From Rubricoccus marinus (lineage in GTDB: Bacteria; Bacteroidota; Rhodothermia; Rhodothermales; Rubricoccaceae), in assembly GCF_002257665.1 (NCBI RefSeq), contig NZ_MQWB01000001.1, positions 3,731,119 to 3,795,118 of the forward strand: a DNA stretch of 64,000 nucleotides, in the 5' to 3' direction. The position numbers and the translations under genes are program-made. The notes beneath the pieces were generated by a model, which was not told the DNA's origin, did no database searches, and was given only the letters and a program-made list of their open reading frames with translations. This document shows, one piece after another, positions 11,316 to 19,130 of the stretch; positions within the stretch are counted from its first letter, which is position 1; each line of letters opens with the position of its first letter.

Positions 11316-12206
11316 TCAGGATCGGTCGCGGCGGCGGCGCGGCAGCGTCTCCGGCGCGACGACGTCGAGCGCGTCGAGGTCCAGAAGTGGGCGGGGCGCG
11401 TTGGCCTCTGGCGCCGCCGAGGAGACAGCCTCGCCAGAGGCCTCGTCGTCGGTCTCCGGCGAGCGAAGGGTTGAGCGGACAGGACCGGAGGGCGCGAGCC
11501 GGACCGCGAGATCGTCGGCGAGGTCTTCCAGCTTGCGGTGCTTTTTCGCCCGCCACTTCACGTCGGCCTTGTAGATCACGAACGAGGCGAGGAGGAAGAG
11601 GACGAAGCCGAGCACGAGGCTGACCCCGGTCGCGAGGGCGCCGTCGAACAGGCCCGTGCCGATGAGCCCCGCCAGAGGCCCGAGCAGGATCATCGAGAGG
11701 AGCCCGTACGCGACGCCCTCGGCGGGCGGGTTCATGTAGCCCACGTGCTGCTCCATGCGGACGCGCGTGCGCTCGCCGCGCTCGGAGACGGTCAGGCGCG
11801 TGTGCACGCCCAGCCCGCTCGTGTGCTCCCACACCTTTGTCGCGCCCTGCTCCTTGAACTCCGTCGCGCTCGTGCGCCCGTACCACGCGCCGTAGTCCGT
11901 CCCGAGCTCGCGGCGCAGGTCGTCCACGGCGTCCTCCCAATCGTGGATGTCCAGCGGCCCAGCGGTCCACCGCTCCACGTGGTTGTGCGTGGATGTGGTG
12001 TACGAGGACTTCTCGGACGCGCCCGCGTCGATCTCGGCCGCGGCGGCGAGCATGTGCTCGGGGTCGATGCCGACCTCGCGGCCCAGGCGCTCGATCTCCT
12101 CCAGCGAGAGCCCCGCCTGCCCCTGGCGGCGGCGCGCCTCTTCCTGGCGCACCACGGCGCGTTCGATGATCTGCGCGACCTCGCGCTCGGTGTACGTGTT
12201 CGGCAT
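11316..12206 (-). CDS. Paralogous two-TM membrane protein, family member 1 of 4
   Basis: 296 aa. Layout shared with 12253, 17383 and 18257: a short N-terminal helical domain (YTEREVAQIIERAVVRQ, then GLSLEEIERLGREVGIDPEH); a middle domain with W-x5-DLRRELG and later KVWEHTSG and TRVRMEQHVG; two adjacent membrane helices (~168-225, GLLSMILLGPLAGLIGTGLF and LVLGFVLFLLASFVIY); and an acidic, Pro-rich tail ending in LLDLDALDV and Arg-rich RRRRDRS. Residues encoded by the CCTCTGGCG motif concentrate in the tail. No enzyme motif recognised. The N-terminal domain resembles a small adaptor; membrane topology would leave both soluble parts in the cytosol. Confidence 0.75.
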   Translation of the reverse strand: MPNTYTEREVAQIIERAVVRQEEARRRQGQAGLSLEEIERLGREVGIDPEHMLAAAAEIDAGASEKSSYTTSTHNHVERWTAGPLDIHDWEDAVDDLRRELGTDYGAWYGRTSATEFKEQGATKVWEHTSGLGVHTRLTVSERGERTRVRMEQHVGYMNPPAEGVAYGLLSMILLGPLAGLIGTGLFDGALATGVSLVLGFVLFLLASFVIYKADVKWRAKKHRKLEDLADDLAVRLAPSGPVRSTLRSPETDDEASGEAVSSAAPEANAPRPLLDLDALDVVAPETLPRRRRDRS

Positions 12207-12252: not shown

Positions 12253-13062
12253 CTACGAACGCTCGCGCCCGCGGGTGCGCGGCTCGCGCGCGGAGTCCGG
12301 CGCGTCGGGCAGGGCGCCGAGGTCCAGGAGCGGCGCCTCTGGCGCGGGGGGCGTGCGCACGCCAGAGGCCCGGGCGGCGTCGCGCGCGGCGATCTCGATG
12401 CGGTCCAGCACGCGCGCGAACTGGCGCTCCGTGCGGCGCGCCCAGCTGCTCCACATCGCCCAGAGCCCGACGAGGACGACGGCTATGACGCCGGCCACGA
12501 GGACGGGTAGGGACCAGATCTCTGGGCCTGCGGCGCCGACGAGGTTGAAGAACGCCGCCAGAAGCACCATCGGGATGACCGCGCCGGGCAGGATCCAGCC
12601 AGCGCCCTTGCTCTGCTTCGCGATGGTCTGCTCCAGCGTGACGGCGGACCCGGCCTCGCTGGGCGTAAGCGTGAGGTGGACGGGCGTGTGACCGTGGGCG
12701 CCGCCAGAGGTCCACTCGCGCTGGCGGCCCATCTCGGTCGGGGTGCCGGGGGTGTCGAACTCGCGCCGCAGCTCGCCCACGATGCGCGCCCAGGCGTCGT
12801 CGTCCACCCCGACCGGCAGCACGCGCTTCTGGCGCACCGCCAGGGGCGCGCCGAGAAAGGTCGGGATCTCGTCAGGCGTGCCCCCGCTCATCTCTGCCAC
12901 GACGGCCGCGACCAGCGCGGGGTCCAGGCCGCTCGCCTCGGCGGCTTCCTGCATCTCCGCGAGCGAGAGGCCGGTCTCGTCCGCCTGCGCGCTGCCCTGG
13001 CGCGTGGCCACTTCGGCGAACACGCGGCGGGCTTCCTCCTCGGTGAATCGGCGCTCGGGCAT
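12253..13062 (-). CDS. Paralogous two-TM membrane protein, family member 2 of 4
   Basis: 269 aa from the ATG at 13062 (MPERRFTEEEARRVFAEVATRQ); an in-frame start at 13116 would translate the spacer palindrome. The same order as its neighbour: GLSLAEMQEAAEASGLDP, then W-ARIVGELRREFD, REWTSGG, VTLEQTIAKQ, two TM helices (ILPGAVIPMVLLAAFFNLVG and PVLVAGVIAVVLVGLW), and a tail with PLLDLGALPDAPD and Arg-rich end. It lies 46 bp upstream of member 1 on the same strand, so the two are probably a tandem duplication and co-transcribed. Confidence 0.75.
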   Translation of the reverse strand: MPERRFTEEEARRVFAEVATRQGSAQADETGLSLAEMQEAAEASGLDPALVAAVVAEMSGGTPDEIPTFLGAPLAVRQKRVLPVGVDDDAWARIVGELRREFDTPGTPTEMGRQREWTSGGAHGHTPVHLTLTPSEAGSAVTLEQTIAKQSKGAGWILPGAVIPMVLLAAFFNLVGAAGPEIWSLPVLVAGVIAVVLVGLWAMWSSWARRTERQFARVLDRIEIAARDAARASGVRTPPAPEAPLLDLGALPDAPDSAREPRTRGRERS

Positions 13063-13080
13063 GGGCAAGAGGTGTGTGCG

Positions 13081-13088
13081 CAAAGCTA
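13081..13088 (-). promoter_or_regulatory. Putative -7 box TAGCTTTG
   Basis: TAGCTTTG on the minus strand, 18 nt before the ATG at 13062, is an exact match to the Bacteroidota TAnnTTTG -7 element. It would drive the tandem pair of paralogs. Confidence 0.5.
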
Positions 13089-13172
13089 CGGATGCCTCTG
13101 GCGCCAGAGGCCCCACGAACCGCGCCGGCGCCGGCAGCGTACTCCCTTCCCCTCTCGCTTTCGCCTTTCCCT

Positions 13173-13973
13173 GTGGACCCCTTCACCCTCACGGCCGGCC
13201 CCGGTCCGCTCGTCGCCGCCGCCGTCCACGACGGACACGCCGCCGACCCCGACACCGCCGTGCGCTTCGCGCTGGACGACCTTGAGCGCTTGCGCGAGGA
13301 GGACCCGTTTACCGCCGAGATGGCCGAGGTCGCCCCGGCGCGCATCATCGGTCGGCGCTCGCGCTTCGAGGTGGACCTCAACCGCCCGCCAGAGGCTGCG
13401 GTCTACCGCACGCCCGAGGACGCCTGGGGCCTGAACGTCTGGAAGGAGGACCTTCCCGAGAGCGTGGTGACGCGCTCGATGGGCCTCTACGACGCGTTCT
13501 ACGACGCCGTCGGCGCGCTCTTGGACGAGAAGGTGCGCCGCTACGGCTCCGTCGTCGTCTACGACCTCCACACCTACAACCACCGCCGCGAAGGCCCGGA
13601 CGGGCCTCTGGCGGACCCCGAGGCCAACCCCGAGGTCAACATCGGAACGGGCAGCCTGGACCCGCGCTGGGCGCCGCTCGTGGAGCGGTTCATGCGCGAG
13701 CTGAAGGAGGGAGCACAAGAGGCCGGGCGCGACGATCTGGACGTGCGCGAAAACGTCAAGTTCAAGGGCGGGCACTTCTCCCGCTGGATCCACGAGCGCT
13801 ATGGCAACGGCGCCTGCGTGATCGCCGTCGAGTTCAAGAAGACGTTTATGGATGAGTGGAGCGGCGAGCCCGACCGCGCGCACCTGGAGCAGATCAAGGC
13901 CGCGCTCGTCCACACCGTTCCCGGCACGCTGGCCTCGCGCGAGGCCATCATGAGCGCGACGGCAGACGCATGA
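13173..13973 (+). CDS. N-formylglutamate amidohydrolase family protein
   Basis: 266 aa from a GTG at 13173 (VDPFTLTAGPGPLVAAAVHDGH); the in-frame ATG at 13074 would translate a motif palindrome, so GTG is preferred. Family motifs: HDGH near the N-terminus, DLNRP, VYDLHTYNHRR, FKGGHFSRWIHERYG and AVEFKKTFMDEW, matching the zinc-site and substrate-binding blocks of the FGase fold. In histidine catabolism this fold hydrolyses N-formylglutamate, but no hut genes are here. Its stop overlaps the next ATG by 4 nt (ATGA). The partners (QEGLA peptidase, ATP-grasp) point to a role in making or trimming a small peptide-like molecule instead. Confidence 0.88.
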   Translation: MDPFTLTAGPGPLVAAAVHDGHAADPDTAVRFALDDLERLREEDPFTAEMAEVAPARIIGRRSRFEVDLNRPPEAAVYRTPEDAWGLNVWKEDLPESVVTRSMGLYDAFYDAVGALLDEKVRRYGSVVVYDLHTYNHRREGPDGPLADPEANPEVNIGTGSLDPRWAPLVERFMRELKEGAQEAGRDDLDVRENVKFKGGHFSRWIHERYGNGACVIAVEFKKTFMDEWSGEPDRAHLEQIKAALVHTVPGTLASREAIMSATADA

Positions 13974-15931
13974 GCGGGCCGCGCGAGCACGACTGGGACA
14001 CGCTGGCCCGCCGCGCCCGAGAAGGGGCCGGCGAGGCGGAGCCTCTAACGTTCGACCTCCCGGACCACTCCGGCCGGTTATTCGTGGACCACGCCGCGCC
14101 CGCGCTCGCCGTCCACCGCTGCCACACCGCGCCAGAGGCCTCTGGCGACCCGTCCAAGAACCGCGCGCTCGCGTGCTCCGAGGCGCACCGCCTGGTTACG
14201 AGCCAGCCCGCGTACCTGCTGGCCTCTGGCGTCTCCGCCGAAGCGAGCGGGACGGCTGCCGAGGGCGTGTGCGCGCTCACGGCCGCAACGGCCGAGGCCC
14301 TGGCCGAGCGCGCCGGCGCCGCGCTCGTCGTCGAGGTCTGGACGCCCATCGACGCGACCGATGACGACGATGTTGACCCGTTCGACCGGCGCCCCGGCTT
14401 TACGCTTTACCTCCCCGAAGCGCCAGAGGCCCAGGCTGCGGGCGCCGCCCTCGCCGACGCGCTCAGCGGCATCGAGATCGCCGGTCAGGGCGCCGACGTG
14501 ACGTGCATCACGACCGACGCCATCGCGCCGCCCGGTCTCGCGCCGCTCCTGGACTGCGCGCCCGGCGCCAGAGGCCGCTCCCGCGTCGCGCTGCTCGGCC
14601 TCGCCGTGGACGCCGTCTTTCTCAACACGCGCGAGGACGAGTTCTACCCCCGCGTGCTCGACGCCCTCCGCGACGCCCTCGCGCCCGCGCTCGAAGCCGG
14701 CGCCACGGCCTTTGCCAGCGCGGTCGGCGCGCCAGAGGCGCCCTCCGGCCGGCGGCACCTGGAGCTTCTGGCGGAGCGCGTGGACCGTGGCCTCTCGCGC
14801 CTCACGCGGCAGTACGGCTTTCTCCTCCAGGTCACGCCCGTCAACTCGCGAGAGGCGTGGACGGACTTCAGCGAGTCGGGCTGCGACAGCGCGCCCGAAC
14901 TGCTCTACCGCCCGCTCACGTTCGACCCCGACGCGCTCCGCCGCGATCTCTTCGCGCTACCCGTCGAGAGCGTCGAGGACCCCGTCGTAGCGCGCCTCTT
15001 GCGCGAGAAGCGCGACGAGATGGCGACCCAGGTGCAAATGATCCTGGACCGCGAGACGCCCGGATTCCTCGCGGGCAGCCTCAAGATCTACGGCGCGCCC
15101 GACGACGCGCTCGTGGCGCTCGCGCGCGACGTGCTCGCCGCGATCCCAGAAGCCTCTGGCGCCAGAGGCCGCGTGGCGGCCGGGGAGGAGGTCGTCGGCG
15201 CGACGGCGTTCGCGGCGGCCGCAGACGGGGAGTTGGAGCACTACCGCGCGCAGTTCGACGGCTTCTCGTCGTCCGTCGAGATCCGGAGCGACATCCCTGG
15301 CAGCCTGATGGTCTCGCAGGGGCAGCTGCTGATCGGCGCGGGCGCGTCCGTCCCGGCGCCTCGCGTGCAGGCGCTGCTCGCGCACGAGGTCGGCACGCAC
15401 GTGCTGACGTACTACAACGGCTGCGCCCAGCCGCTGCGCCTCTTGCGGCACGGCATGGCCGGCTACGAGAGCCTGCAAGAAGGCCTCGCCGTGCTCGCCG
15501 AGTGGCTTGTCGGCGGCCTCACGCCCGCCCGGATGCAGACGCTCGCCGCGCGCGTGCTCACCGCGCGGTGCCTGGCCTCTGGCGCCACGTTTATCGAGGC
15601 GTTCCGCCACCTCAAGGAAAACACGGCGCTAACCGATCGCGGCGCGTTCGGCATCACCTTGCGGGTGTACCGCGGCGGCGGTCTCACCAAAGACATGATC
15701 TACCTCCGCGGCCTCCGCGATCTGCTCGCCTACCTCGGCAACGGCGGCGCCTACTGGCCGCTCTTTATCGGCAAGGTCTCGCTCGCGCGCGCCGCCGATG
15801 CCGAGGCGCTCCGCGCCAGAGGCGTCCTCCACGACGCCCCGCTCCGCCCCCGCTACGCCGAGGACGCGGACGCCCTCGCCCGCCTGGACCGCGCTCGCTC
15901 CGGCCTCACCGTTCTCGACCTCATGGCCTGA
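13970..15931 (+). CDS. QEGLA-motif (DUF1704, MATCAP-like) zinc metallopeptidase family protein
   Basis: 653 aa. The zinc motif HEVGTH is at 472-477 and the family signature QEGLA at 503-507 (LQEGLAVLAEWLVGG supplies the third ligand Glu). Bacterial members are annotated as flavohemoglobin expression-modulating QEGLA proteins; eukaryotic relatives are tubulin tyrosine carboxypeptidases (MATCAP). An exo-carboxypeptidase-type activity is therefore plausible. The N-terminal ~270 residues resemble none of my known families and include many motif-encoded APEA/ARG triplets. Translation is coupled to the amidohydrolase by an ATGA overlap; an ATP-grasp ligase follows 272 bp later. Confidence 0.88.
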   Translation: MSGPREHDWDTLARRAREGAGEAEPLTFDLPDHSGRLFVDHAAPALAVHRCHTAPEASGDPSKNRALACSEAHRLVTSQPAYLLASGVSAEASGTAAEGVCALTAATAEALAERAGAALVVEVWTPIDATDDDDVDPFDRRPGFTLYLPEAPEAQAAGAALADALSGIEIAGQGADVTCITTDAIAPPGLAPLLDCAPGARGRSRVALLGLAVDAVFLNTREDEFYPRVLDALRDALAPALEAGATAFASAVGAPEAPSGRRHLELLAERVDRGLSRLTRQYGFLLQVTPVNSREAWTDFSESGCDSAPELLYRPLTFDPDALRRDLFALPVESVEDPVVARLLREKRDEMATQVQMILDRETPGFLAGSLKIYGAPDDALVALARDVLAAIPEASGARGRVAAGEEVVGATAFAAAADGELEHYRAQFDGFSSSVEIRSDIPGSLMVSQGQLLIGAGASVPAPRVQALLAHEVGTHVLTYYNGCAQPLRLLRHGMAGYESLQEGLAVLAEWLVGGLTPARMQTLAARVLTARCLASGATFIEAFRHLKENTALTDRGAFGITLRVYRGGGLTKDMIYLRGLRDLLAYLGNGGAYWPLFIGKVSLARAADAEALRARGVLHDAPLRPRYAEDADALARLDRARSGLTVLDLMA

Positions 15932-15935
15932 CCGG

Positions 15936-15951
15936 CCTCTGGCGCCAGAGG
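15936..15951 (+). terminator. Motif palindrome 5 bp after a stop codon
   Basis: CCTCTGGCGCCAGAGG begins 5 bp after the stop at 15931. If it terminates, it would separate the ATP-grasp gene from the first two genes of the cassette. Confidence 0.45.
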
Positions 15952-16032
15952 CCGCCGCCTTCACCCCTCCCCTCGGGGAGGTGCCCGCGCGAGCGGGCGG
16001 AGGGGGTCGCGCCTCTGAATGCCTCCGAGCCC

Positions 16033-16079
16033 CGCCAGAGGCCTCTGGCGCACTCGAACCGGGCGTATGCGATACGCCC
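16033..16079. repeat. Two inverted repeats in the cassette spacer
   Basis: An 18-bp motif palindrome (16033-16050) is followed by GGGCGTAT-GCG-ATACGCCC (16061-16079), an 8-bp stem with a 3-nt loop unrelated to the CCTCTGGCG motif. The rest of the 272-bp spacer shows no open gene. Confidence 0.65.
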
Positions 16080-16203
16080 CTACGGCCTCCGGCTCCACAT
16101 CTCTCTCTGCGTCTCGCCAGAGGCGCACTCTTCTCTCGACCTGCTGCGGACACGTGGACGGGCACTCTGCCCATCCCTCCCGCATCCCCCTTTCCCTCCC
16201 CGC

Positions 16204-17247
16204 ATGCGCATCGCCTTCCTGATCAACGACTACGAGACTGAAAAGGACGTCTTCACCACGACGCGGCTCGCGCTCGCGGCTCACAAAGCCGGCCATGAGG
16301 TCTGCTACCTCACCGTCGAGGACTTCATCTGCGACCCGGACGAGACGCTGCGCGTGCGCGTGCGGACGCCCGGCGGGACGTACAAAACGGAGAAGACGTT
16401 TATCGAGGGCATCAAGGGCGATGACCACGTGGAGCACCGGATGCCCGTCGAGGAGATCGACGCGCTCCTCTTGCGCAACGACCCGGCCGACGACGCCGGC
16501 AGCCGGTCGTGGGCGCAGTCGGCGGGCATCGTGTTCGGCCAGATGGCGGCGCGCCGTGGCTGCCTGGTCCTCAACGACCCCGAAGGGCTCGCGAAGGCCG
16601 TCAACAAGGTGTACTTCCAGCGCTTCCCGGAGTCCGTGCGGCCCAAGACGCTCGTCACGCGCCACCCCGACGACGTGCGCCACTTCATCAAGGAGCACGG
16701 CGGCGACGCCATTATCAAGCCGTTCCAGGGCTCGGGCGGCGACGGCGTGTTCGTCGTCCGCAAGGACGACCACGCGAACCTCAACCAGATCATCGACGCC
16801 GTGTGCGCCAGCGGCTACATGGTGGTGCAGGAGTTTCTGCAAGAGGCCGCTGGCGCCGACACGCGGATGTTCCTCGTCAACGGCGAGCCGCTCCAGCGCG
16901 ACGGCGTCTACGCCGCGCTCCGCCGCGAGGGCGCCGAGGGTGACATCCGCAGCAACATCTCCGCCGGCGGCAGCGCCGTGGAGGCCGTGATCGGCGAGCG
17001 CGAGCTGGAGATCGCCGAGATGGTGCGCCCGCAGCTCATCCAGGACGGCATGTTCATGGTCGGGCTGGACATCGCGGGCGGCATCCTCCTGGAGGTCAAC
17101 GTGTTCAGCCCCGGCGGCATCGGCGGGATCAAGCAGCTGACCGGCGTGGACTTCGCGCCCGACGTGATCGCGGCGGTCGAGCGCAAGGTGCTCGCGCGGC
17201 AGCGGTACACTCAGCACTTCGACAACGTGACGCTGGCGACGATGTAG
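16204..17247 (+). CDS. Glutathione-synthetase-like ATP-grasp ligase
   Basis: 347 aa from the ATG at 16204. It has the prokaryotic glutathione synthetase layout: MRIAFLINDYETEKD at the N-terminus, LLLRNDP (GSH-S N domain), LNDPEGLAKAVNK, then the ATP-grasp core IIKPFQGSGGDGVFVV (glycine-rich loop), VVQEFLQEA, DTRMFLVNGEPL, NISAGGSA, and metal/ATP-binding GLDIAGGILLEVNVFSPGG. No glutamate-cysteine ligase is in the window. Given its partners it may ligate an amino acid to a glutathione-like or other small peptide. Calling it gshB proper would be premature. Confidence 0.85.
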   Translation: MRIAFLINDYETEKDVFTTTRLALAAHKAGHEVCYLTVEDFICDPDETLRVRVRTPGGTYKTEKTFIEGIKGDDHVEHRMPVEEIDALLLRNDPADDAGSRSWAQSAGIVFGQMAARRGCLVLNDPEGLAKAVNKVYFQRFPESVRPKTLVTRHPDDVRHFIKEHGGDAIIKPFQGSGGDGVFVVRKDDHANLNQIIDAVCASGYMVVQEFLQEAAGADTRMFLVNGEPLQRDGVYAALRREGAEGDIRSNISAGGSAVEAVIGERELEIAEMVRPQLIQDGMFMVGLDIAGGILLEVNVFSPGGIGGIKQLTGVDFAPDVIAAVERKVLARQRYTQHFDNVTLATM

Positions 17248-17382: not shown

Positions 17383-18198
17383 TCAGGCGCGCGAGCGCAG
17401 GCGGTCCGCCAGAGGCGTCTCGGCCTCTGGCTCGTCGTCGAGAAGGGCCGCGTCGATGCGGCCGGAGCGCGCGGGCGGCGCCTCCGCCAGAGGCTCGGCC
17501 TCTTGCGCGTCCGCCTCGGCGTTGCGCAGGGCGAGGTCGATGCGGTCCAGCGTGGCGTCGAACTTCGCGATCTGGCTGGAGGCGTAGGCCCGCATCCCGC
17601 CATACGAGCCGCCCCCGAAGAGGGCCGCGAAGAGGAGCATCACGATGGCCGGGACGAACATGTCGCTTTCGACGCCGGTAACCGCGATGAGGGCGAAGAC
17701 GACGCCCATGACGGCGTTGATGCCCGTCGCGATGCCGAGGCCGAGCGCGGCGTTGGTCTGCGACTGCTCGATGACGACGCGCGTGCCGTCGCGCTCAGGC
17801 GAGAGCGTGACGGTGACGGGCTGCTGCTGATCGTTGGCAACGGAGCGCCACTCTCGGAGCGGGCCAATGTCGGTCACGAGGCCCGGCTTGTCGAACTGTC
17901 GCCGGAGGTCCATCACGATCTCGGCCCAGGTCTCGGGCGTGACGGTACCGCGGACGAACCGCTCGCGGCGAAACGCCAGCGGGATGCCCATGACGGTCTT
18001 GGTCGTCGCGGCCGGGTCGGGGCGGAGCGCGTCCATCGCGGCCTCGCGCACGAGCTCAGGGTCCAGCCCCGACGTGCGGCCGATCTCTTCGAGTTCCTCC
18101 AGCGACAGGCCGGGCTCGGTCTGTTTGCGTTCGAGTTGCCGCTCAGCCGCGGCGGCGAAGATGCGCTGGGCATCGGCTTCGGTGAATCGCTTGGGCAT
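17383..18198 (-). CDS. Paralogous two-TM membrane protein, family member 3 of 4
   Basis: 271 aa, starting MPKRFTEADAQRIFAAAAERQ. Shared blocks: GLSLEELEEIGRTSGLDPELV, then W-AEIVMDLRRQFD, PLREWRS, TRVVIEQSQTN, two TM helices (ATGINAVMGVVFALIAVTG and VPAIVMLLFAALFGG), a short DRIDLALRN helix and an acidic tail with IDAALLDDEPE. Closest by eye to members 2 and 4. It faces the ATP-grasp gene convergently, so the amidohydrolase/QEGLA/ATP-grasp cassette has a pair of paralogs on each side. Confidence 0.75.
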   Translation of the reverse strand: MPKRFTEADAQRIFAAAAERQLERKQTEPGLSLEELEEIGRTSGLDPELVREAAMDALRPDPAATTKTVMGIPLAFRRERFVRGTVTPETWAEIVMDLRRQFDKPGLVTDIGPLREWRSVANDQQQPVTVTLSPERDGTRVVIEQSQTNAALGLGIATGINAVMGVVFALIAVTGVESDMFVPAIVMLLFAALFGGGSYGGMRAYASSQIAKFDATLDRIDLALRNAEADAQEAEPLAEAPPARSGRIDAALLDDEPEAETPLADRLRSRA

Positions 18199-18256: not shown

Positions 18257-19069
18257 CTACTCCCGGAGCCTCTGGCGGGAGCGCGCGTCGCCAGAGGCGT
18301 CCGGCGTGTTGTCCAGCAGCGACGCGTCGAGGCGTGGCGCGTCCGGGAGCGCCTCTGGCGCGTAGGTCTCCGCCAGAGGCGGGGCGCTTGCGCGGGCCTC
18401 GGCCCGCTCGTCGGTGAGGGCGACGGCTTCGAGGGCCTCCATCGCGCGGTCCAGCTTGCCTTCGATCCTCGGGCCTTTGGGCCAGAGCCGTGGCCACGCC
18501 CAGGCGCCAGAGGCGGCGCCCATCGCGGCGAACATCGCGGCGAGGACCAGAACGTCGGGCTTGCCTTTGACGACCGACGCGGCCACCATCACGAAGGCGT
18601 ACCCGATCAGCATGGCCGTGGCGGCAAGCGCGCTAACGGCGTCGGCGCGCCACTCGCCAGAGGCCGTGATGCGCGTCCGCTCGCCCTCGGGCTCCAGGAG
18701 GACGCGGTACGGCCCGCGGCGCCACTCGCGCACCTCGCCGATGATCTCGACCGTGCCCGTGCCGCCGAGTTGGCGGCGCAGCGTGGCGACCATTTTGGCC
18801 CACTCGGCGTCGCTTACGCGCCCGGGCACGATTCGCGTGCGCTGCGCGCCGGTCTGGATGCCGAGAAACGGCGCGCTTGTCGGGAGGTCGTCGCCGGCGC
18901 CGAGGGCGGCCTGCTCCACGTACTGACTATCGATGCCGGCGGCCTCGGCGGCACGTTTGACCTCGTCGAGCGAGAGGCCGGGGCCTCTGGCGTCGTCGGA
19001 CGTGGCCTGAAGGAGCGAGGCGCGGCGGAGGAGGTCGGCGGCTTGGCGCTCGGAGTAGTGGTCGGGCAT
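18257..19069 (-). CDS. Paralogous two-TM membrane protein, family member 4 of 4
   Basis: 270 aa from the ATG at 19069 (MPDHYSERQAADLLRRASLLQ); upstream in-frame sequence to 19480 is antisense to the SDR gene and rejected. Shared blocks: GLSLDEVKRAAEAAGIDSQYV, then W-AKMVATLRRQLG, EVREWRRG, TRITASGEW, two membrane helices (VSALAATAMLIGYAFVMVAA and VLVLAAMFAAMGAASGAWAW), and tail LDASLLDNTPDA ending Arg-rich. It lies 58 bp upstream of member 3 on the same strand, mirroring the 46-bp spacing of members 1 and 2. Confidence 0.75.
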   Translation of the reverse strand: MPDHYSERQAADLLRRASLLQATSDDARGPGLSLDEVKRAAEAAGIDSQYVEQAALGAGDDLPTSAPFLGIQTGAQRTRIVPGRVSDAEWAKMVATLRRQLGGTGTVEIIGEVREWRRGPYRVLLEPEGERTRITASGEWRADAVSALAATAMLIGYAFVMVAASVVKGKPDVLVLAAMFAAMGAASGAWAWPRLWPKGPRIEGKLDRAMEALEAVALTDERAEARASAPPLAETYAPEALPDAPRLDASLLDNTPDASGDARSRQRLRE

Positions 19070-19114
19070 GACGTGTAGGGGTGGCGTCCCTACGGGCCGT
19101 CGCGAGGGAAGATG

Positions 19115-19130
19115 CCTCTGGCGCCAGAGG
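19115..19130 (-). terminator. Motif palindrome directly after the SDR stop
   Basis: CCTCTGGCGCCAGAGG abuts the stop codon of the minus-strand SDR gene (stop at 19131) and precedes the paralog starting at 19069. Confidence 0.45.

Follow-up and report, generated by a model that had tools for sequence, protein, structure and literature searches.

The cassette and its location

Three genes in a 64,000-nucleotide stretch of the Rubricoccus marinus genome (contig NZ_MQWB01000001.1, positions 3,731,119 to 3,795,118; this whole stretch is referred to as the window) form the subject of this work. They encode an N-formylglutamate-amidohydrolase-fold zinc hydrolase (FG), a two-domain protein that ends in a MATCAP/QEGLA metallopeptidase (MC) and a GshB/RimK-like ATP-grasp carboxylate-amine ligase (GS). 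Judging from its recurrence in other genomes, FG-MC-GS is a real unit, probably a self-contained and horizontally mobile one. What this unit does is a separate question. One candidate answer, which stands at about even chances, is a pathway that makes and trims an acidic, peptide-like metabolite and serves osmotic adaptation.

FG lies at 13173-13973 on the + strand. Its GTG start at 13173 agrees with homologues, and an in-frame GTG upstream, at 13074, gives the longest open reading frame. The FG stop codon (13971-13973) is overlapped by the ATG of MC at 13970, forming ATGA, and by this overlap MC (13970-15931, +, 653 amino acids) appears to be translationally coupled to FG. GS follows on the same strand, from its ATG at 16204 to the end of its stop codon at 17247 (347 amino acids). 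The gap between MC and GS is 272 nucleotides (nt), which is unusually long; most relatives have -4 to +30 nt. The initial annotation had described three genes with these domains in one direction, with ATGA between the first two, and all of this is present at that place and on that strand. The genome has a single MATCAP gene.

FG and its stand-ins

FG matches the Pfam family of N-formylglutamate amidohydrolase (FGase; PF05013) with 83.5 bits (cut-off 28.9). Its AlphaFold model (pLDDT 96.9) finds FGase structure 2q7s as its best match (Z 24.6 over 238 residues), with a second FGase structure at Z 22.5. The FGase motif residues are kept (D133xH135, DLNR, H21, R66 and E222, counted from the open reading frame at 13167-13970 of the window), and H21, R66, D70, N72, R73, D133, H135 and E222 are invariant in 59 homologues. 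FG is predicted to be active as a zinc hydrolase. After the FGases come carboxypeptidases and poly-gamma-glutamate hydrolases (PDB 3a9l, 5onj, 21dc), with Z about 12. These hydrolases share the broad fold of FG, but FG is far closer to FGase, and no capsule genes are conserved nearby.

One clue to the substrate is what can take the place of FG. In four Bacteroidota genomes that have no FG, a succinylglutamate desuccinylase/aspartoacylase (AstE/AspA) gene adjoins GS instead (loci L041, L042/L100, L043 and L120, the last by profile only). FGase, AstE and AspA each cleave an acyl amide on an acidic amino acid. Since all three cut such bonds, the natural substrate of the cassette would carry an acyl amide on an acidic residue. 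At five other loci without FG (L064, L075, L088, L121 and L126) no substitute hydrolase was recognized among the neighbors, in a check by eye only. FG resembles both HutG (COG3741) and AstE/AspA in its fold and conserved motif residues, and AstE/AspA even replaces it in some cassettes. Unlike in the settings of those enzymes, no histidine- or arginine-degradation genes are conserved with the cassette.

MC combines a decayed FGase domain with a MATCAP peptidase

The C-terminal part of MC is readily recognized. It matches Pfam MATCAP (PF08014) with 278 bits over residues 299-639 (gathering cut-off 27), and the QEGLA model TIGR02421 with 304.3 bits, under the cut-off of 338.65. By the latter model MC appears to be a relative of that family rather than a member. 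In the AlphaFold model of MC (pLDDT 93.4), residues 285-653 (14822-15928, +) superpose on human MATCAP 7z6s with Z 24.9 and rmsd 3.1 over 296 aligned residues. The HExxxH...E zinc site of the MATCAP family is intact, with HEVGTH at residues 472-477 (15383-15400, +) and E511 within the QEGLAVLxE stretch (15476-15502, +). H472, E473, H477, Q503, E504, G505 and E511 are invariant in 81 homologues. By analogy, MC is predicted to act as a C-terminal carboxypeptidase.

The N-terminal part is less obvious. Residues 1-265 gave no family match in the initial domain searches. However, a profile of 75 MC N-termini aligns with the FG profile at an hhalign probability of 96.2 (E 2.7e-9), whereas 20 column-shuffled controls gave E values of 0.075-0.76 and the reversed profile 0.18. 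The FG matches of the first MC profile were suspected to be an artefact of the fused protein of locus L032, but a profile rebuilt without L032 kept the homology. In the model, residues 32-254 (14063-14731, +) match 2q7s with Z 12.9 over 197 residues. The profile alignment shows neither the DxH nor the HxGH catalytic motif of FGase in this domain, and only one of the 75 long MC proteins (that of L072) passed a loose test for FGase motifs. By profile and model, the N-terminal region of about 250 residues is thus a decayed FGase domain (a pseudo-enzyme), and this is a new finding.

The L032 protein is an FG-MATCAP fusion that retains every FGase motif, and an FG-MATCAP fusion in Vibrio has lost DxH. 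In Photobacterium sp. GJ3 the cassette takes a two-gene form, in which GS precedes an FG-MATCAP fusion that is 43% identical to the L032 protein over 670 residues. Together the proteins appear to make a graded decay series, from intact fusion to half-decayed fusion to the long, fully decayed MC beside a separate, intact FG.

The ligase and its paralogues

GS matches Pfam GSH-S_ATP with 165 bits and the PRK12458 'glutathione synthetase' subfamily with 429.8 bits, above the cut-off of 408. In PRK12458 the words 'glutathione synthetase' are an annotation name only. Against canonical glutathione synthase models GS falls well short, with 190 bits for TIGR01380 (cut-off 299) and 207 bits for PRK05246 (cut-off 272). 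It shares fold family and reaction type with E. coli GshB (PDB 1gsa; 107 bits over residues 21-326), and its ATP-grasp residues K172, Q209, R221, D289, E297 and N299 are invariant or nearly so. It resembles RimK as well as GshB. The genome has two other GSH-S_ATP matches, RimK itself (NCBIfam, 420 bits) and, by eye, a cyanophycin-synthetase-like protein.

A tree of 60 ligases separates a clade found in cassettes of the order GS-FG-MC (8 rows, support 100/99) from the main clade. The GS-FG-MC clade occurs with short, fused or long MC. Flavobacteriaceae cassettes such as L033, L034 and L123 hold one ligase from each clade, and in Planctomycetota and one Gemmatimonadota genome two old ligase paralogues are adjacent (L055, L069, L073 and L098). 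Such pairs may meet the need of a two-step assembly, but redundancy is also possible.

Conservation of the cassette and its neighborhood

MATCAP genes are sparse around R. marinus. They occur in 6 of 99 genomes of its order, all within its family, and in 18 of 394 genomes of a phylum sample; because of this scatter the gene has probably spread horizontally. The partners nevertheless stay with it. At the 17 phylum loci besides that of the window, GS stands beside MC in 16 and FG and GS are both there in 13, so the co-occurrence that the initial annotation asked about is strong. A wider scan, over 84,980 species genomes, yielded 80 loci, which belong to Acidobacteriota, Planctomycetota, Kiritimatiellota, Calditrichota, Poribacteria, Campylobacterota, Gemmatimonadota, Myxococcota, Pseudomonadota, Thermodesulfobacteriota, Verrucomicrobiota, Actinomycetota and Bacteroidota (names as in the genome records, many of which are metagenome-assembled genomes, MAGs). 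GS is present in 76 and both partners in 64 of the 78 cross-phylum loci analyzed, a set chosen by similarity to MC and therefore biased to long MC, in which contig ends account for some absences. Of 81 loci, 26 have a 4-nt overlap between MC and GS, and in 62 the two are no more than 30 nt apart. Rhizobiaceae plasmids, including pSymB of Sinorhizobium meliloti 1021, have the order FG-MC-GS (by annotation or tblastn). Since it recurs in so many phyla, the arrangement is far beyond chance.

MATCAP genes also occur without a GS partner at L132, L133 and L134, which are in Vibrio sp. HDW18 (an FG-MATCAP fusion), Pseudoalteromonas and Legionella (short form). The peptidase may have a use of its own there. 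A literature search found no description of the cassette among the papers covered, although an earlier mention in the amidoligase review of Iyer et al. (2009) is possible. The decayed domain, the replacement by AstE/AspA, the ligase paralogue pairs, the non-glutathione role and the osmotic link are new.

A survey of neighbor families found no fourth core gene common across phyla, only antisense shadows of FG, MC and GS, and no conserved metabolite exporter or further biosynthetic gene. Likewise, no short open reading frame near the cassettes (up to 1.2 kb away) is conserved across phyla; all that turned up were antisense shadows in Flavobacteriaceae. This bears on the idea of a cluster for a ribosomally synthesized and post-translationally modified peptide (RiPP), with GS as the maturase. 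ATP-grasp RiPP maturases do exist (microviridin and others), and a weak match to one maturase model appears. With no conserved precursor gene across phyla, and with intergenic gaps mostly too short to hold one, this reading is disfavored and hardly credible.

The same survey bears on the nearest serious rival to a make-and-trim pathway, namely reversible protein tailing. What if GS lengthens a cellular protein at its C-terminus or at an acidic side chain, and MC and FG take the added residues off again? RimK modifies ribosomal protein S6 and TTL/TTLL tubulin in this way, by adding residues, and TTL/TTLL are ATP-grasp ligases. The likeness of GS to RimK fits, as does the lack of a conserved exporter or other biosynthetic gene. 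In eukaryotes, TTL/TTLL ligases are paired with MATCAP/TMCP carboxypeptidases. The latter act on C-terminal Tyr and Glu, and the human MATCAP-family enzymes remove these residues from tubulin tails and deglutamylate them (PMC10499314). However, the neighbors of the cassette include no conserved candidate for a target protein, nor any short open reading frame shared across phyla, and enzymes of the FG/AstE type are known for small N-acyl amino acids. Tailing is a serious idea but an unlikely one.

In Flavobacteriaceae loci (L028-L037, L102, L115 and L123) MC is preceded on its own strand, at a distance of about 3-5 kb, by a gene for an SDF-family dicarboxylate/amino-acid symporter.

Is the cassette perhaps a salvage system? 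The hydrolases would then recover units from acidic peptides or N-acyl-glutamate-like compounds, and the ligase would put one of these units to use again. Hydrolases make up two of the three enzymes, the known pathways of FGase, AstE and AspA are catabolic, and Flavobacteriaceae have the symporter gene upstream. Against this, the ATP-grasp partner is nearly constant and its duplications favor synthesis, and no catabolic gene is common across phyla. Salvage seems rather improbable.

The question of ordinary glutathione

The name of PRK12458 makes ordinary glutathione, or a close thiol, the obvious candidate product, with the cassette serving its synthesis and turnover. The gene content of the genomes argues otherwise. 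None of the 23 Bacteroidota genomes with a cassette has the glutamate-cysteine ligase family PF04262, and PF04107 is missing from 12 of them, even though the genomes are for the most part nearly complete. BshC, an enzyme of bacillithiol synthesis, is present in all 23, so that they probably make bacillithiol. Among 43 further cassette genomes, for which completeness is not given and some of which may be missing data, 14 lack both PF04262 and PF04107. Neither family is therefore found in 26 of 66 cassette genomes overall (about 40%).

Where a glutamate-cysteine ligase is present, there is mostly a separate GshB as well. In four of five carriers a separate, canonical GshB scores over its cut-off (408-446 bits), whereas the cassette-type ligase genes of the same carriers reach 171-195 bits against the canonical model (genes assigned by type and not by position in the cassette). 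The fifth carrier is a fragmented MAG. The genome of R. marinus itself is the awkward case. It encodes a YbdK-like, GCS2-type carboxylate-amine ligase (PF04107; L137:5706-6944, - strand) that passes both the YbdK model TIGR02050 and the glutamate-cysteine ligase model NF010043 (465 bits). By the latter, glutathione remains conceivable in this organism; by the former, the protein need be no glutamate-cysteine ligase.

As a general role of the cassette, ordinary glutathione is largely refuted by the GS scores, the missing glutamate-cysteine ligases, BshC and the separate GshB. As a reading of the cassette it is very improbable. The initial annotation had proposed a glutathione-like thiol as one product and had named ordinary glutathione as what would refute its pathway. 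The thiol finds no support, and ordinary glutathione is disfavored by the genome content and model scores. The label 'glutathione synthetase' on cassette-type ligases is probably wrong, also for the one that has been discussed as a glutathione gene linked to low salt and virulence.

A possible osmotic link

The gene just mentioned comes from Photobacterium damselae. At 1% compared with 3% NaCl, the GshB-annotated gene A0J47_RS17020 is up 38.4-fold and the QEGLA gene RS17025 27.5-fold; the two have consecutive tags, are among the genes most induced at low salt, and the ligase is treated as a glutathione synthetase by the authors (PMC10308900). Because the congener Photobacterium sp. GJ3 has that form, the pair is likely to be the two-gene cassette. 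In V. vulnificus, VV2_1203 (COG3930) and VV2_1204 (glutathione synthetase) have been reported as a clade-specific pair (PMC3091676).

The next link comes from the neighborhood. Near 43 cassettes there are 11 copies of MscS-type channel genes in 10 loci, with one per locus confirmed by Pfam, where 0.99 would be expected from the 259 copies in these genomes. The excess is about 11-fold (Poisson P about 9e-9), and in 200,000 simulation runs at most 7 loci were reached. The ten loci belong to Planctomycetota, Poribacteria, Acidobacteriota, Gammaproteobacteria, Gemmatimonadota, Kiritimatiellota and Myxococcota. Genes for CorA and for AA_permease-family transporters likewise recur near cassettes.

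A possible make-and-trim pathway

How might the three enzymes work together? GS would spend ATP on linking an amino-acid-like unit to a small acidic acceptor through the acceptor's carboxylate, a reaction of the GshB/RimK type. The MATCAP zinc peptidase domain of MC would take C-terminal residues off the product, much as its human relatives trim tubulin tails, while the decayed FGase domain of MC probably serves to bind substrate or to dock FG. FG would hydrolyse the amide beside the acidic residue, as FGase and AstE/AspA do. The net outcome would be an acidic peptide-like metabolite that can be built and trimmed as osmolarity or salt changes.

Conservation as a unit, the domains, the intact FG, MATCAP and GS motifs, the domain decay, the replacement by AstE/AspA, the lack of the remaining glutathione-synthesis genes in many carriers and the MscS linkage are directly supported. 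The chemistry, the acidic product and the physiological role are parts that we infer. Several points weigh against the pathway just outlined. The induction was seen in a single species, one with the two-gene form, where the identity of the cassette depends on a congener's sequence. The MscS excess was spotted post hoc among many neighbor families, in loci that are partly related, and is uncorrected for kinship. The peptidase domain can also be put to other uses, since Pseudoalteromonas, Legionella and one Bacteroidota locus have MATCAP-family genes that stand without partners. The proposal of the initial annotation, a ligase and two hydrolases acting on a peptide-like product, accordingly stands in part: the domains and their co-occurrence support the enzymes as a set, and the small-peptide pathway is what we infer from them. 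That annotation had noted neither the decayed FGase domain of MC, nor the two-gene form with its FG-MATCAP fusion, nor the osmotic connection.

Surrounding DNA

The window also contains four paralogous proteins of about 270-300 amino acids (t1-t4) in a tandem array on the - strand (11316-12206, 12253-13116, 17383-18198 and 18257-19120). They have a 'GLSLEELEEIGR' motif and likely membrane helices, and gave no Pfam match. Arrays of several t-type copies occur family-wide. Here and in a sister species the array is interrupted by the cassette, which is on the opposite strand. A related genus has the array uninterrupted and the cassette elsewhere, and so the cassette has moved within the family.

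The 9-mer GCCAGAGGC occurs 244 times in the 64 kb, counting both strands (3.8 per kb), where shuffled sequence would have 1.8 copies in all, with example sites at 13094-13111, 15152-15169 and 15935-15952. The palindrome CTCTGGCGCCAGAG has 19 copies in the window. Three other regions of the genome have GCCAGAGGC at 3.6-4.3 per kb. It was found in none of the sampled sister-species and family loci, where other words are favored (CGCTGGCGG in two). It looks like a species-specific dialect of a DNA uptake sequence or a HIP1-like element.

Relation to known systems and significance

Among known systems, the operon for N-acetylglutaminylglutamine amide (NAGGN), asnO-ngg-peptidase, is one parallel, as a small, osmolarity-responsive operon with an amide ligase and a peptidase (PMC8070244). 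Unlike the cassette, it consists of Ngg, AsnO and a glutamyl aminopeptidase and is induced at high osmolarity rather than at low. None of the three cassette families is shared as a unit, and no Ngg or AsnO homologues are among the conserved neighbors of the cassette ligase. The same source reports that fhp is co-regulated by PA3697 (PMC8070244). Canonical GshB is a second parallel, but GS lies below the equivalog cut-offs, and the partners and genomes of the cassette do not match glutathione.

The tubulin tyrosination/glutamylation cycle is another parallel, with an ATP-grasp ligase that adds C-terminal residues, a MATCAP enzyme that removes them, and a peptidase core to which that of MC is structurally close. 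It differs in that the cassette ligase is GshB-like, an FGase-family enzyme and a decayed FGase domain are added, and the cassette is not known to act on a tubulin-like target. In a bolder version, the cassette would put acidic residues on the C-terminus of a small peptide or protein and take them off again as osmolarity changes. It would then be the bacterial origin or equivalent of the TTL/TTLL-MATCAP logic of tubulin tails, with the decayed domain recognizing the substrate. This is enticing, but it must be considered doubtful.

For a three-enzyme unit to have been kept in over a dozen phyla, on chromosomes as well as plasmids, it must produce or remodel something of use. The peptidase of MC is a bacterial relative of human MATCAP/TMCP, and its natural substrate could explain the origin of tubulin-tail activity. 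The copy on pSymB of S. meliloti makes the question of what the cassette does directly testable.

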